Origin: Lachnospiraceae bacterium
Lineage (GTDB): Bacteria > Bacillota > Clostridia > Lachnospirales > Lachnospiraceae
Direction: 5' to 3'
NCBI GenBank assembly: GCA_017618075.1
Contig: JAFZUY010000036.1
Coordinates: forward strand, 1-48,769
DNA: 48,769 nucleotides
Both the position numbers and the translations under genes were made by a program. Under the pieces are notes generated by a model. The model saw only the letters and a list, made by a program, of their open reading frames with translations, was not told the origin of the DNA and searched no databases. Below are positions 28,798 to 34,752 of the stretch, piece after piece. How positions within the stretch are numbered: the first letter of the stretch is position 1; every line of letters begins with the position of its first letter.

Positions 28798-30300
28798 ATG
28801 TGTGAAGCGTTATATAAGGAAATTAAGAGTTATAAACGGTTGTTAATCGTTTATGCTTCAATTTTGCTTTTGGTGGCAGTTTTCTGTTCACCGTTTTTTG
28901 GCATTCAGGATTTTGTTGTAAGGGCTTCTGAAGAAGGTACTGTGCCTGTAGGAGAGACCATCAGCACTTTGACTGATTTATTCATGGGCAAGTCCTTAAG
29001 AAATGTTGCCGGAGCTTATGCTTCTGTAGTAGGTGTTTCTGCCGAGCCCTTTACAGCACTTGTTTATTTGGGACTTATTGAGAATATCAACAGACTTTGC
29101 GGAAGTCCGCTTAATATTGTATCAACACCTGCGGGAAATCCGATTGTATTTCTATTGATTGCCATATTCTTTGTAATAAGTAAACTTATGAAATCGTTTG
29201 AAACTACCAAGTTGTTTGGACTTTGTACTTTAGGCGAGCTTGAAAAGTATTTGGGCCTTGTATTTATCCTTGCACTCGGTGTTATGAACGTGGTAGGCCT
29301 GACTGATAAATTTGCCGTTGCGACCGTAAAAGCAGCTGCGGATGCCGGGACCGGCTCTGCCACAAGTGTTGCAATGGGAGTAGTTGCTACATTATTCTCG
29401 GTATTTATGGCACTTGTATCGGTTATCGTTTATCTGGTTGTTAAAACTGTATTTTTCGGACTTGATGCACTTCAGTCATGTTTCTCATTCGTTCCTTTCT
29501 CCGGAGCTTTGTTTGAGATATTCAAGACTGTATTTGTAATAGTAATTCTTTCAATAAACGTATTCTTCCCCTGGATTGGTGTGGCATTGAATATTATCGT
29601 ATTCTTTATCTGCCTCGTTCTTTTCAGATTCTTCTTAAGCGTGGAAGAGTTCTTAAGAAAGATTTACATCAAACCCTTTATTGCAAGACTTCGCGGTTTC
29701 AACGACGAAATTCCTTTTACCTACAAAAAGGTGCCTAAATTTATCAAGAAATACTGTGATGCAGAAAATATTGTGTATGATGTTGCAATTCCCGCATATG
29801 CGTTCAAGCATAAAGAGGCCAATGATTTCCGTATGAAATTCATGGAGAAAATCTGGGTTATTCATACTGAAAACGGTACTATGTTCCTAAAGAAGAAAGG
29901 CTTAAAGAAAATAGAGAAATACGAACTTTTCGGCAAGGAAAAGATGTATTACTTAAGAAAAGACTTCAGATTCCTTGAGATTTTCTCCAATCCCAAAGAT
30001 GAAAAACTTTCAAAGAAAGATCTTCGTGCGGTTATTTCTGTTGAATATGTATTGAGATTTGATGAGTTATGCGATCTTTTAGGATTTTACAATTATCACG
30101 TCGTAAAAGAAAACATCAAGCAGACCAAGAAAGAGCTTAAAGCCGAAAAACGTGAAGCACGTAAAGAGGCTATTAAATTACGAATCAGCACATTTACTGA
30201 CGGAACCGTTGAAAAATTAAAACCTGTGTATGCTAAGGTTACTGCAGCGCTTCCTTTCGGTAAGGATGAAGATGTGGACTATTTTGATTATGATAAATAA
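28798..30300 (+). CDS. Polytopic membrane protein with cytoplasmic tail, unknown function
   Basis: A 500-residue protein not recognised. An N-terminal hydrophobic stretch (about 14-32) is followed by a polar loop, then about five further hydrophobic segments (near 110-130, 145-165, 195-220, 240-262, 264-285). From residue 290 on it is soluble and basic, ending in a Lys/Glu-rich helix (KQTKKELKAEKREARKEAIK) and an acidic tail. The AAAKAAADAGTGSATSV-like small-residue loop around 170-190 lies between helices. GGAGGAG precedes the ATG. It is followed at 22 nt by the DUF1015 gene and may share its transcript. Confidence 0.8.
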   Translation: MCEALYKEIKSYKRLLIVYASILLLVAVFCSPFFGIQDFVVRASEEGTVPVGETISTLTDLFMGKSLRNVAGAYASVVGVSAEPFTALVYLGLIENINRLCGSPLNIVSTPAGNPIVFLLIAIFFVISKLMKSFETTKLFGLCTLGELEKYLGLVFILALGVMNVVGLTDKFAVATVKAAADAGTGSATSVAMGVVATLFSVFMALVSVIVYLVVKTVFFGLDALQSCFSFVPFSGALFEIFKTVFVIVILSINVFFPWIGVALNIIVFFICLVLFRFFLSVEEFLRKIYIKPFIARLRGFNDEIPFTYKKVPKFIKKYCDAENIVYDVAIPAYAFKHKEANDFRMKFMEKIWVIHTENGTMFLKKKGLKKIEKYELFGKEKMYYLRKDFRFLEIFSNPKDEKLSKKDLRAVISVEYVLRFDELCDLLGFYNYHVVKENIKQTKKELKAEKREARKEAIKLRISTFTDGTVEKLKPVYAKVTAALPFGKDEDVDYFDYDK

Positions 30301-30322: not shown

Positions 30323-31561
30323 ATGGCTAAAGTAATTCCTTTTAAAGGTATCAGACCCACAGTTGAAAAATGCAGCAAAATCGCTGCGCTTCCTTACGAC
30401 GTTTACAATCGAGAAGAAGCAAAAGAAGTAGTTTTAAAAAATCCCGACTCATTTCTTGCTATAGACAGAGCCGAAACATCATTTCCCGATGATGTTGATA
30501 CTTATGATGAGAGAGTATATCAGAAAGCTCATGATATGCTTTGGGAGAGAATCAAACAGGGTGATTTCGTTGAAGAAGACAAAAGAGTTTACTATATTTA
30601 CGAGCTTATCATGGACGGCCGTTCTCAGACCGGTATTGTAGCATGTGCTTCAATTGATGATTATATCAATAACGTAATTAAGAAACATGAGAATACCAGA
30701 GCAGACAAAGAAGTGGACCGTATCAAGCATGTAAGTGCATGTGAAGCTCAGACGGGACCTATTTTCCTTGCATACAGATCAAACGATGTTATTAACGCAA
30801 TCGTGTCTAAGATTAAAGGTACACCTGCCTTATATGATTTTGTTGCGGAAGACGGCATTACACATAAAGCATGGATTATTTCCGACGAAGCTGATATTGA
30901 AGCTATTGAAAAAGCCTTTGAAGGAATGGATTCAATCTATATTGCTGACGGACATCACAGATGTGCTTCAGCCTGCAAGGTTGGAATGAAAAAGAGAGAA
31001 GAAAATCCTAACTTTACAGGTGATGAAGAATTTAACTACTTCTTATCGGTACTTTTCCCCGATGATCAGCTTATGATCATGGATTACAACAGAGTCGTTA
31101 AAGATTTAAACGGCTTAAACGAAGCAGAATTCGAAGATAAGATTTATAAAGTATTTGATAAGGTTTCTGAAAGCAACGAGCCTATAAAGCCACAGGCTAA
31201 GGGACAGGTTTCGATGCTTTTAGGAGGAAAATGGACTTTGCTTAATGTAAAGGACGAATTTAAGTCAGAAGATCCTATTAAGGGCCTCGATGTATCAATT
31301 CTTCAGAACGAAATTCTCGATCCCGTACTTGGTATCAAGGATCCCAAGACTGATAAAAGAATCGATTTCGTCGGAGGCATCAGAGGTCTTAAGGAACTTG
31401 AAAGAAGATGCAATAAAGACTGCGTGCTTGCATTTGCAATGTATCCGACATCAATAGGCGAACTTTTCAATGTTGCTGATGCACATCTTTTAATGCCGCC
31501 CAAGAGCACATGGTTTGAACCGAAGCTTCGAAGCGGAATGTTTATTCATTGTATAAAATAA
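30323..31561 (+). CDS. DUF1015 family protein
   Basis: A 412-residue soluble protein of the uncharacterised DUF1015 family. It begins with the family signature VIPFKGIRPTVEKCSKIAALPYDV and has the highly conserved YIADGHHRCASA motif (about residues 210-221). The DGHHR motif resembles the DGxHR motif of the ParB/SerK-type nucleotide-binding fold, so ATP or ADP binding is a reasonable but unproven idea. The C-terminal NVADAHLLMPPKSTWFEPKLRSGM is also conserved. In other clostridia such genes lie near serine biosynthesis genes; here the next gene is a branching-enzyme-like pseudoenzyme. Confidence 0.92.
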   Translation: MAKVIPFKGIRPTVEKCSKIAALPYDVYNREEAKEVVLKNPDSFLAIDRAETSFPDDVDTYDERVYQKAHDMLWERIKQGDFVEEDKRVYYIYELIMDGRSQTGIVACASIDDYINNVIKKHENTRADKEVDRIKHVSACEAQTGPIFLAYRSNDVINAIVSKIKGTPALYDFVAEDGITHKAWIISDEADIEAIEKAFEGMDSIYIADGHHRCASACKVGMKKREENPNFTGDEEFNYFLSVLFPDDQLMIMDYNRVVKDLNGLNEAEFEDKIYKVFDKVSESNEPIKPQAKGQVSMLLGGKWTLLNVKDEFKSEDPIKGLDVSILQNEILDPVLGIKDPKTDKRIDFVGGIRGLKELERRCNKDCVLAFAMYPTSIGELFNVADAHLLMPPKSTWFEPKLRSGMFIHCIK

Positions 31562-31620: not shown

Positions 31621-33900
31621 ATGGATCAGAAACACTACAATATGATGGATTGGGAAGCCATTGAATCGATAGTTTACGCAGACTGCAACAAGCCCTGCGA
31701 TATACTGTCTGTTTCAAAGAAAGGGAAATCAAAGCTTATACAGGCATTTTATCCTGATGCTGAAAGCGTCACTGCACATTTTGCAGTGAATGGAAAGAAT
31801 AAAAGCCTTAAACTTGAAAAGGTTGATGAAGCAGGCTTCTTTGCTGAGTTTTTTACCTTTGAATATTCATCATATTATTTCAAGGTTGAATACAAAGAAA
31901 ACACTTTGGACAAGGTTTATGATCCTTACAGCTTTAAGATTACTCTTGATTCATCCGTAAAAGATGTAATTAAAGGCAAATCAGTAAAGGCCTACGAATC
32001 ATTCGGCGCTACCAAGAAGAAATATGACGGAATCGAAGGCTACGAGTTCATAGTTTATGCTCCTTCGGCTGATGGCGTTTCTTTAGTCGGAGATTTTAAC
32101 AACTGGAGAGAAAATGCCAACTTAATGCAGGCTGACAATTCAGCTAAAGGCATTTATAAACTCTTTGTTCCCGGCCTTAAGGATTATTCAAATTATAAAT
32201 ATGTGATTAACTGCAAGGGCCGGAAGGTTTTCAAAAACGATCCTTTTGCTCTCGGAATAGACGGTGACAATTCGGTTTGCGTTCCTTTTAGTTTCGCCGA
32301 AAAGGTTCCTAAGAAGAGCAAATGCCCCAAGGATCTTGAACTTCAGATACTTGAAGCAGACTTAAATGCTCTTTACAAAGAATATAAAGATTCCGATAAA
32401 GTATGTAATTATCTTTTAAACCATGCAAAGAAGCTTGATTACACTGCGATATCTTTTATACATTTGTTTAAATCAAACAATCCTAACGATATTTACGAAA
32501 TTCTCAATCCTTATTCGATTGATTTTACGAACGGATTAAACTGCGCAGAATTAAAAGATATTGTAACCAAGTTAAAGAAAGAAGGAATCATATCTTTTAT
32601 CGAACTTCCTTTGGCATATTCATCGGATTGTGAGAGTGGTCTTTTAAAATTTGACGGCACATCGCTTTTTGAAAATGCAGATGACAGACTCGGAAGACAT
32701 AATTTCTATAAAGCAATGCTTTATGATTATACGAATCCTTTTACGAAGTCATATCTTTTATCAAGCATTAATTACTTCTTAAATGAGTATGATTTTAACG
32801 GATTTGTTTGTCCGAACACAGGCGTTATTCTTTATCACGATTACAATAAGAAGGCAGGAGAGTTTATCACCGAAGAATGGGGCAGCACTTTAAATTCTAA
32901 GGGTGTTGAGTTCATAAAAGAAGTAAACAGATTTATCCATAAAGATTTTAAGAATGCCGTATCTATTGCAAGCATTTATGCATATTACAAAAATGTTACC
33001 GGCAAAAATCCCGAATCGCTTTGCTTTGATTTTGTAATGAACGCCGGAACAACTAATGAAGTGCTTGATTTCCTTAAGCTCGATCCTACATTCAGAAGAG
33101 ATAAGCTTGATTCTTTCCTTCTTTATGCGCATTTTACGAAGAAAGATGAAAAGTACATTTATCCGTATTCGTATAAAGAGAATACACAGGATTTTGCATC
33201 GATTTACGACAGAATGCCGGGCGATAAGAATCAGAAGTTCTCAAATCTTAAGATGGCTGTAATCTTTAAGCATCTTTTATACGGAGCACAGCTTACAAAT
33301 CTTGATATTGATGAACTTAAGGGCTGCGATGCAAAGTTAAAAGAAGTATACGAGAAATTCTATGCTGACTTCAGAAGAATCTATACATCTCATAAAATGA
33401 GAATGAGAAACTTCAATGAAGACAAGCCTTTCAGTTATAAATGCATTGATAACCAGGTATTTACGAGAGAGTATTTCGACGGTGACAAAGATTACATTAT
33501 AGTATTCAACTTCTCCAAAGATTCATATCAGAAATACAATATTCCCGTATCGCATGCCGGCGTCTATAAAGAAGTGTTTAATTCTGACAACGTTATTTAC
33601 GGCGGAGAAGGCGTAGAGAATAAAAAGGCTCTTCAGACCACTGAAAACGAGACAGAGGATAATGAGACATTAACAATTAAGCTTCCTGCACTATCTATCA
33701 TGGCTTTCGAATACAGAGAGTTTACCGAAAAGGAACTTGAAGCAATCTTCCTAAAAAAGAAGAAAGCAATGATTAAATTCGTTGACGGTGAAAAGAAAAA
33801 GATTAAGAATAAACTTAACGAAGATATAGAAGTTCTTAAAAAAGACGCAGACAAGCGTATGAAAGAACTTGATGAATTACTCAAACCTTTTGAAAAATAA
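31621..33900 (+). CDS. Glycogen branching enzyme-like protein lacking all catalytic acids
   Basis: A 759-residue protein derived from GlgB. Residues 10-110 match the GlgB N-domain (WEAIESIVYADCNKPCDIL, LIQAFYPDAESVTAHFAVNG). Residues about 140-220 form a CBM48 module (YEFIVYAPSADGVSLVGDFN). A GH13 barrel follows and keeps framework motifs such as MPGDKNQKFSNLK. The catalytic residues are gone: the nucleophile Asp position is Pro398 (NGFVCPN instead of DGLRVDA), the acid/base Glu is Ser451 (IASIYA instead of IAEEST), and the third Asp is Lys519 (YPYSYKE instead of LPLSHDE). A charged coiled-coil tail of about 55 residues (from about 700) is not usual in GlgB. ATG 31621 was chosen because GGGGG (31608-31612) lies 8 nt before it. 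A role in glycogen binding or regulation is inference. Confidence 0.88.
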   Translation: MDQKHYNMMDWEAIESIVYADCNKPCDILSVSKKGKSKLIQAFYPDAESVTAHFAVNGKNKSLKLEKVDEAGFFAEFFTFEYSSYYFKVEYKENTLDKVYDPYSFKITLDSSVKDVIKGKSVKAYESFGATKKKYDGIEGYEFIVYAPSADGVSLVGDFNNWRENANLMQADNSAKGIYKLFVPGLKDYSNYKYVINCKGRKVFKNDPFALGIDGDNSVCVPFSFAEKVPKKSKCPKDLELQILEADLNALYKEYKDSDKVCNYLLNHAKKLDYTAISFIHLFKSNNPNDIYEILNPYSIDFTNGLNCAELKDIVTKLKKEGIISFIELPLAYSSDCESGLLKFDGTSLFENADDRLGRHNFYKAMLYDYTNPFTKSYLLSSINYFLNEYDFNGFVCPNTGVILYHDYNKKAGEFITEEWGSTLNSKGVEFIKEVNRFIHKDFKNAVSIASIYAYYKNVTGKNPESLCFDFVMNAGTTNEVLDFLKLDPTFRRDKLDSFLLYAHFTKKDEKYIYPYSYKENTQDFASIYDRMPGDKNQKFSNLKMAVIFKHLLYGAQLTNLDIDELKGCDAKLKEVYEKFYADFRRIYTSHKMRMRNFNEDKPFSYKCIDNQVFTREYFDGDKDYIIVFNFSKDSYQKYNIPVSHAGVYKEVFNSDNVIYGGEGVENKKALQTTENETEDNETLTIKLPALSIMAFEYREFTEKELEAIFLKKKKAMIKFVDGEKKKIKNKLNEDIEVLKKDADKRMKELDELLKPFEK

Positions 33901-33909
33901 GGATAAATT

Positions 33910-34752
33910 ATGGCTGAATTTTTAAAGACTGCTTTTGGCAGTGCAGTAACTGAAACATTCTGGTTAAAGGTATATTCGCTTGCATGGCGTGTTGTTTTGT
34001 GCGCTGCACTTGCTATTATCACCATTCAGGCGGTTAAAATAATCAAGAAAGCTTTAAAGAAAGCTTTTAAGAAGGTTAAGGTCGATGACGGTATTGCAGG
34101 TTTCCTTACATCCTTAATCTGCGTTGGCATTTACATCGTTGTCGGATTTATAATTGCCCAGAGCATGGGTATTGATGCAGCAAGCATTGTTGCTCTTTTA
34201 GGATCTGCAGGTGTTACCGTAGGTCTTGCTATCCAGGGTTCACTTGCAAATATCGCAGGCGGTGTGCTTATCCTTATATTAAAGCCTTTTAAGGTTGGAG
34301 ATTATATTATTGAGAATTCCCACAGCAACGAAGGTACTGTAATTGAAATAGGCCTTATTTATACCAAATTAAATACGATAGACAACAGAACGGTCATTCT
34401 TCCAAACGGTACTTTGGCTAACTCATCCATAGTTAATGTTACGCAGACACCTTACAGAATGATTGATTTAAAGCTTGATATCGCTTATTCTGCAGACTTA
34501 CAGCTTGCAAAGGATACTATTGCAAAGGTTTTGGAAGAAGATAAAGATGTTTTAAGCGAAAAACCCGTTGTGATCGCTATGGAATCATGGGAAGCAAGTT
34601 CGATTCGTCTTTGTGCAAGATTTTATGTGCTTAACGAGAACTTCCTTGCTACCAGATTCAGAGTCAGAGAAAGCATTAAACTTGCTTTTGATGAAAATAA
34701 TATTGAAATACCATTTACACAGGTTGTTGTGCACAAACCGGACAGAGAGTAA
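33910..34752 (+). CDS. mscS: Small-conductance mechanosensitive channel (MscS family)
   Basis: A 280-residue channel that releases solutes when turgor rises. Three transmembrane helices lie at about 24-44, 65-85 and 92-125. The pore-lining TM3 has the Ala/Gly pattern SIVALLGSAGVTVGLAIQGSLANIAGG, followed by KPFKVGDYI, the start of the beta domain. VILPNGTLANSSIVN and the C-terminal alpha-beta domain complete the MscS core. It begins 10 nt after the GlgB-like gene, with AAGGAT as ribosome binding site. Confidence 0.94.
   Translation: MAEFLKTAFGSAVTETFWLKVYSLAWRVVLCAALAIITIQAVKIIKKALKKAFKKVKVDDGIAGFLTSLICVGIYIVVGFIIAQSMGIDAASIVALLGSAGVTVGLAIQGSLANIAGGVLILILKPFKVGDYIIENSHSNEGTVIEIGLIYTKLNTIDNRTVILPNGTLANSSIVNVTQTPYRMIDLKLDIAYSADLQLAKDTIAKVLEEDKDVLSEKPVVIAMESWEASSIRLCARFYVLNENFLATRFRVRESIKLAFDENNIEIPFTQVVVHKPDRE

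Follow-up and report, generated by a model that had tools for sequence, protein, structure and literature searches.

A probable pseudo-branching enzyme at a conserved DUF1015-GlgB-MscS locus of Lachnospiraceae

The window, a 48,769-nucleotide stretch from the genome of a rumen Lachnospiraceae bacterium (contig JAFZUY010000036.1), contains at 31621 to 33900 of the forward strand a gene for a homolog of the branching enzyme GlgB. The frame runs from an ATG at 31621 to a stop at 33900 and has no stop inside its 759 codons; its coordinates, frame, and length were given correctly in an earlier sequence-only reading of this DNA. A TTG at 31549 is a possible earlier start that would add 24 codons, but the alignment of orthologues begins at the ATG. 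The gene lies between two conserved neighbors on the same strand, a DUF1015 gene (30323 to 31561, identified by Pfam and the neighbor survey) and a gene for an MscS-type channel (33910 to 34752) that begins 9 bases past the GlgB stop. Upstream of DUF1015, positions 28798 to 30300 encode a 500-residue protein with many hydrophobic stretches and no Pfam or NCBIfam match; seven long loci (L032, L034, L036–L038, L040, and L041) have relatives with 49–97% identity to it on the upstream side of DUF1015. A near-identical (98%) locus is present in Lachnospiraceae bacterium G41, and several of ten further records carry the names of samples from the rumen or abomasum of water buffalo or yak.

The protein has the domain order of GlgB. 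An N-terminal stretch (residues 1–30, 31621 to 31710) runs into a GlgB_N domain (PF22019, residues 11–103, 31651 to 31929), followed by a CBM48 (PF02922, residues 128–210, 32002 to 32250), a GH13-type barrel region with approximate boundaries (residues 263–600, 32407 to 33420), an Alpha-amylase C-terminal all-beta domain (PF02806, residues 613–698, 33457 to 33714), and a charged tail predicted to be helical (residues 701–759, 33721 to 33897). The three Pfam domains score above their curated cut-offs and the barrel is covered by NCBIfam models and solved branching enzymes, so the framework of GlgB_N, CBM48, and barrel described from the sequence alone is confirmed. The NCBIfam branching-enzyme models span about residues 110–700 with E about 2e-80, yet remain far under their curated cut-offs: the best three models reach 273 of 741, 271 of 577, and 245 of 464 bits required for a GlgB equivalog. 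Solved branching enzymes align to residues 265–694 and are the closest solved structures. GlgB itself (5gqu from Cyanothece and 1m7x from E. coli), which we take to belong to GH13 subfamily 9 (GH13_9), shares the domain order and aligns over nearly the full length. Two AlphaFold runs, one with 11 sequences and one with 13, reached mean pLDDT values of 47.9 and 58.5 and pTM values of 0.30 and 0.34, with most former active-site loops below pLDDT 50, so the pocket is not readable from the models. In a Foldseek search with the low-confidence model, the 50 matches listed were branching enzymes, but with TM about 0.25; the sequence outranks this result as evidence.

The window protein departs from GlgB in its active site, where none of the three catalytic acids remains and only one of five further shell residues is kept. 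Alignment to the intact GlgB of the same genome places P398 (32812 to 32814) at the nucleophile Asp, S451 (32971 to 32973) at the acid/base Glu, and K519 (33175 to 33177) at the stabilizing Asp, the same three replacements that the sequence-only reading had named. We take these positions to be D405, E458, and D526 of E. coli GlgB. In the catalytic shell, D335 is E328, H340 is Y333, R403 is V396, and H525 is Y518; Y300 is retained as Y292. Misalignment of the catalytic motifs is ruled out: all 174 intact proteins of our survey keep Y300, D335, H340, and R403 and 171 of them keep H525, and the triad-less proteins are degraded at these five shell positions too. A frameshift or annotation artefact is ruled out by the open frame, the 27 aligned orthologues, and the dN/dS values given below. 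Judged from sequence, the window protein is very probably a real and selected pseudo-branching enzyme that has lost branching activity.

The gene is present in 28 of the 31 genomes of the genus, and the three genomes without it (G017, G019, and G030) are all 70–76% complete. One genus copy is a fragment (L019/L042, residues 503–759, 257 residues) that was left unclassified. All 27 classifiable orthologues are triad-less, with all three acids gone in 25 and two gone in 2, and the nucleophile is absent from every one. In the subclade of the window gene (13 members), position 398 is Pro in 12 and otherwise Ser, position 451 is Ser in all 13, and position 519 is Lys in 12 and otherwise Tyr. Between the window gene and its five nearest relatives dN/dS is 0.042–0.064 (Nei-Gojobori, own script); these are the five least saturated of 12 pairs, five others being saturated and two more having dS above 2. 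Every domain is constrained in the pairs with L006 and L007, where no domain has dS above 1.5. The short active GlgB has dN/dS of 0.024–0.036 against the same five genomes. As expected of a pseudoenzyme, essential residues are replaced, the replacement is fixed among orthologues, and purifying selection is seen in five pairs. The claim of a pseudoenzyme under selection thus holds up, as does the fixation of the substitutions that the sequence-only reading had proposed to check. It had also named acid-retaining orthologues beside a decaying copy as an observation that would overturn it; none was found in the genus. The counterparts at this position in other genera often keep the acids, but the window gene shows no decay.

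An active GlgB elsewhere in the genome had been proposed as a further check, and the window genome encodes one other GlgB, a short enzyme at G000:C53 with Asp, Glu, and Asp in place. Among the 76 genomes with a triad-less copy (28 of the genus and 48 outside it), 74 hold an intact Asp-Glu-Asp GlgB, which was read from partial frames in G028, G040, and G204. In G010, the residues of the intact GlgB are split over two frames at one locus. The sole triad-less genome in which no intact GlgB was found is G429 (L132, with Ala, Glu, and Ala at the triad positions; 370 contigs, 93% complete), where the search at E below 1e-60 returned none and a weaker second match is present. The intact copy is mostly of the short type, with another long copy in G255 and G397. 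In G019 and G030, the intact enzyme alone was found. All 31 genus genomes have a match to glgA (29 above the cut-off) and 30 of them one to glgC (27 above the cut-off), so glycogen is probably made. In the window genome, glgA and glgC are on contigs C14 and C43, apart from the pseudoenzyme locus. Two or three glgB homologs are reported for Dorea and Blautia (PMC10395257).

Lachnospiraceae have a second, long GlgB, and by its genomic position the window gene corresponds to this copy. A DUF1015 gene of the same orientation immediately precedes it at 26 of 27 genus loci, 29 of 48 other triad-less loci, and 62 of 174 intact loci. The corresponding numbers for MscS directly downstream are 17 of 27, 29 of 48, and 127 of 174, and one or the other adjoins the gene in 27 of 27, 40 of 48, and 138 of 174. 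MscS could be placed for 45 triad-less and 127 intact copies, and its start falls within 30 nucleotides of the GlgB stop in 35 and 84 of these, respectively. Flanks were about 1.5–1.7 kb at most loci, so absent neighbors include contig ends, and the Fisher tests used to compare neighbor and tail frequencies ignore shared ancestry. The neighbors had been identified correctly from the sequence alone, but they are not unrelated to the gene as had been supposed: throughout the family both often flank the long GlgB, whether or not it has the triad. Because the same locus holds an enzyme with all acids in other genera, the triad was lost in place. A lineage-private duplicate is ruled out by the gene string shared with intact copies. 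In one other genus the string is serC-serA-DUF1015-GlgB-MscS, around an intact enzyme. At that locus (L049:1410-5042), serC and serA are immediately upstream of DUF1015, a context for a serine-related role of DUF1015. DUF1015 weakly resembles ParB-family proteins, and it might, as a guess from context, be linked to free serine kinases such as SerK (PMC12704722 and PMC5120207).

The family-wide survey drew on 397 Lachnospiraceae genomes, relatives of the window gene, and two further sets, giving 256 loci and 249 distinct proteins, with duplicate loci between collections (L032–L042) excluded from the counts. From the 397-genome search we took the matches listed, with E down to about 2.5e-192, and 54 genomes with weaker best matches were searched again; at least nine were omitted (best E 1e-163 to 1e-155, for example G140, G231, G346, and G426). 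Weaker matches were counted as short GlgBs, with the triad checked in the genus and in genomes with a triad-less copy, and second long copies were counted among the matches listed. Open frames of at least 300 residues were used, so badly broken copies elsewhere would be missed. The 249 proteins comprise 174 intact and 75 triad-less ones. Outside the genus, 48 of 220 long GlgBs examined (from 206 genomes) lack one to three acids, one protein per genome; besides genus members, the 220 exclude the short reference enzyme and a single protein from the order level. One acid is gone in 14, two in 22, and three in 12, the nucleophile is gone in 37, and the 48 copies are spread over 42 genera by genus code. 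In other families of the order there was no loss among 33 proteins from 32 genomes (the best match of each, one in two pieces); all covered residues were intact, all seven in 30 of the proteins, and L056 is also intact. Scans of viral contigs for more alignment sequences yielded two contigs. In a viral contig (L361:2995-3981), a glgB-like frame ends after 328 residues and is flanked by two near-identical frames in opposite orientation, which are presumably methylase-like.

The long second GlgB of Lachnospiraceae appears to have become triad-less several times in related genera. A FastTree phylogeny of the 249 proteins requires 9 changes of state, and a slower tree of 96 proteins, chosen by hand to include all 48 non-genus losses, 9 of 27 genus proteins, and 39 of 174 intact proteins, requires 13; triad columns were omitted from both. 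In the slower tree, supported losses are those of L206/L217 beside intact L076 (100/98), L132 beside L109 (100/100), L135 within L105/L106 (100/100), and L176 with L181/L089 (100/82), together with at least one in a clade of L045, L139, L092, and others (97/93) beside intact L154/L030 (100/100). This suggests at least five well-placed losses beyond the window lineage, and at least six in total if regain is excluded. Support is weak for the deeper branches near the window lineage, long triad-less branches may attract one another, and the large mixed cluster adds no settled count. Three proteins (L103, L131, and L137, from G109, G304, and G424) keep the triad and have lost the shell His H525, the only shell residue changed among the intact proteins. 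L103 and L137 form an intact group within the mixed triad-less cluster and L131 lies beside triad-less copies; all three are possible half-way forms.

The C-terminal tail had been described as an added coiled coil. Residues 703–753 are predicted to form one long helix, but the heptad moment exceeded that of shuffled sequence at p<0.05 in none of nine homologs, the window protein included. Charged tails of at least 30 residues were counted in 119 of the 172 long GlgBs that are intact and in 34 of the 48 triad-less proteins from other genera, which rules out the tail as a novel addition; neither "coiled coil" nor "added" is supported. The tail is older than, or independent of, the loss of the triad. 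In the genus, K, R, E, and D make up a median of 52% of it. Starch-related PTST proteins combine a CBM48 with a helical part, in which they resemble the window protein, and are not known to have an amylase barrel; the tail of the window protein shows no heptad signal. PTST proteins are treated in PMC4339375.

Conservation within the protein has shifted away from the barrel. When the window subclade is compared with the other half of the genus, mean identity is 59% over residues 1–30 (the best-conserved segment), 37% in GlgB_N, 39% in CBM48, 28% in the barrel, 31% in the C-terminal sheet, and 40% in the tail. The same segments show 47, 36, 63, 69, 49, and 25% among intact enzymes and 51, 35, 50, 42, 43, and 22% among triad-less proteins of other genera (400 sampled pairs each). 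Because the compared sets are of different ages, the evidence lies in how the domains rank and not in the levels. In the genus, the barrel has been released from constraint and the N-terminal stretch and tail have not; in the triad-less copies of other genera, the barrel is released too and the tail has no special conservation. The conserved CBM48 Trp, W162 (32104 to 32106), is Trp in 62 and Phe or Tyr in 13 of the 75 triad-less proteins. It is Trp in all 13 members of the window subclade and Phe or Tyr in 10 of the 14 other genus proteins.

We put about even confidence in the explanation that we consider best, which is that the protein is a non-catalytic adaptor that binds alpha-glucan. From sequence, we infer a protein that would lack activity, bind glucan, and bind a partner. 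The long second GlgB would have lost branching in place, since the genome's short GlgB is intact and can carry all branching, and the pseudoenzyme would have kept its fold to serve a role other than catalysis. GlgB_N and CBM48 would hold glycogen. A partner may be bound by the conserved N-terminal stretch together with the reshaped face of the barrel and the charged tail helix; it could be the active GlgB, a different enzyme of glycogen metabolism, or a protein encoded by one of the neighboring genes. The observations behind this adaptor are the lost acids, their fixation, purifying selection, the backup enzyme, the kept neighbors, and the shift of constraint from the barrel. The Trp kept in CBM48 by 62 of 75 triad-less proteins and the glgA and glgC matches also favor it. 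Against it, that Trp is Phe or Tyr in most of the rest of the genus (10 of 14), the named neighbors include no glycogen gene, and the serC-serA string does not suggest glycogen. The tail is only 22% identical among triad-less copies of other genera, so contact through the tail, if any, would be a matter of the genus.

The nearest precedent is MKIP1, a plant class III branching enzyme that PMC13172542 describes as having no activity, a role in plastid splicing, and function without its CBM tryptophans. By the same source, it resembles the window protein in that a branching-enzyme body has had its catalytic residues exchanged in all orthologues, is about 30% identical to active paralogues that the organism also encodes, and has an extra part rich in Lys and Glu. 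MKIP1 has lost two Asp and keeps the Glu, whereas the window protein has lost all three acids. MKIP1 carries a stretch of about 150 residues after the CBM; the window protein has about 50 residues from the CBM48 match to the start of the barrel, with no such stretch seen, and carries a C-terminal charged helix instead. Since MKIP1 works without the tryptophans, the kept CBM48 need not imply glucan binding. The plant protein ISA2 (PMC12510319) is a non-catalytic GH13 protein with a glucan role and resembles the window protein as a relative of a glucan enzyme that has no functional catalytic site and is kept beside an active paralogue; it differs in being related to debranching enzymes and in being bound by ISA1. 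In bacteria, the chlamydial GlgA-GlgB fusion has a branching domain that is reported to be inactive (PMC11046441). Those chlamydial genomes have lost glgC and glgP, and the window protein is free-standing in a genome with glgA, glgC, and an intact GlgB. Among the literature matches listed, from a search with most subscription journals and bioRxiv outside it, there was no report of triad-less GlgBs in Lachnospiraceae.

A serious rival, though less likely than the adaptor, is that the cleft was rebuilt to take a new ligand or even to catalyze a different reaction. Among 8 non-redundant members of the window subclade, entropy is 0.50 in the GH13 loops against 0.81 in the rest of the barrel, a contrast matched by 0.3% of circular shifts and 0.5% of random segments (Y300 loop omitted). 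Intact enzymes have a similar pattern (0.52 against 1.03, matched by 1.2% of shifts), and there is no such contrast in the rest of the genus (1.45 against 1.39) or in other triad-less copies (2.25 against 1.83). Eight new loop residues (E328, S335, E338, S339, N399, S451, Y453, and N521) are invariant in all 13 members and K519 in 12, while S517 and E520 of the same loops are common to intact enzymes. Mere erosion does not predict loops that are conserved again with new residues, and the cleft of this subclade looks rebuilt, not only eroded. That signal comes from 8 non-redundant sequences, 13 in total, and packing may hold the loops; K519 is Tyr in L013 and the models show no pocket. The conserved loops do suggest that the cleft itself does something, which an adaptor acting purely through its CBM would not need. 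A speculation we rate slightly lower still is that the dead cleft became a new polar site, with the protein serving as a sensor or other enzyme together with the channel and DUF1015, and that the second GlgB would be drawn repeatedly into such a role once redundant.

A second serious rival, which we rate as equally less likely, is that the protein has moved away from glucans as MKIP1 did and would act as the scaffold of a different complex, perhaps one with the MscS channel or the DUF1015 protein. The conserved gene string and the short distance from the GlgB stop to MscS (within 30 nucleotides in 35 of 45 triad-less against 84 of 127 intact cases) are consistent with it, as is the finding that, outside the genus, DUF1015 adjoins triad-less copies more often (29 of 48) than intact ones (62 of 174). 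MKIP1, with its Lys- and Glu-rich region, is a precedent (PMC13172542). However, an identical string surrounds intact enzymes, so pseudoenzyme status is not required for it, and gene adjacency is not interaction. MscS adjacency is also no commoner in triad-less loci (29 of 48, and 17 of 27 in the genus, against 127 of 174), in counts uncorrected for shared ancestry.

That the gene is decaying toward loss is very improbable: it does diverge faster than the active GlgB (identity within the genus falls to about 30%, against 78–100% for full active copies) and constraint on its barrel is relaxed, but dN/dS is near 0.05, none of the 28 genus copies has an internal stop, 28 of 31 genomes carry it, and median length is 774 residues in triad-less and 790 in intact proteins (among open frames of at least 300 residues). 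Equally improbable is that an aberrant triad still supports branching or some other reaction on glucans. The alpha-amylase BmaN1 is active with His for the third Asp (PMC5347038), but it retains the nucleophile and acid/base, whereas the window protein has neither of these and has also lost the shell Arg and both His. The 14 of 48 non-genus copies that lack one acid only could be active.

Domain matches alone would label the triad-less proteins as branching enzymes. Lachnospiraceae are a large family of the gut and rumen, and about one-fifth of their long GlgBs examined in other genera (48 of 220) lack catalytic acids and so may be unable to branch; counts of glycogen pathways in gut genomes are affected by this. 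The pseudo-branching enzyme offers a bacterial counterpart to the plant protein MKIP1 described recently (PMC13172542). Repeated loss of the same acids in place, at a conserved locus where the gene is kept, is a natural experiment on the other roles of a branching enzyme, and as read from these sequences it points to a non-catalytic job for the long second GlgB.
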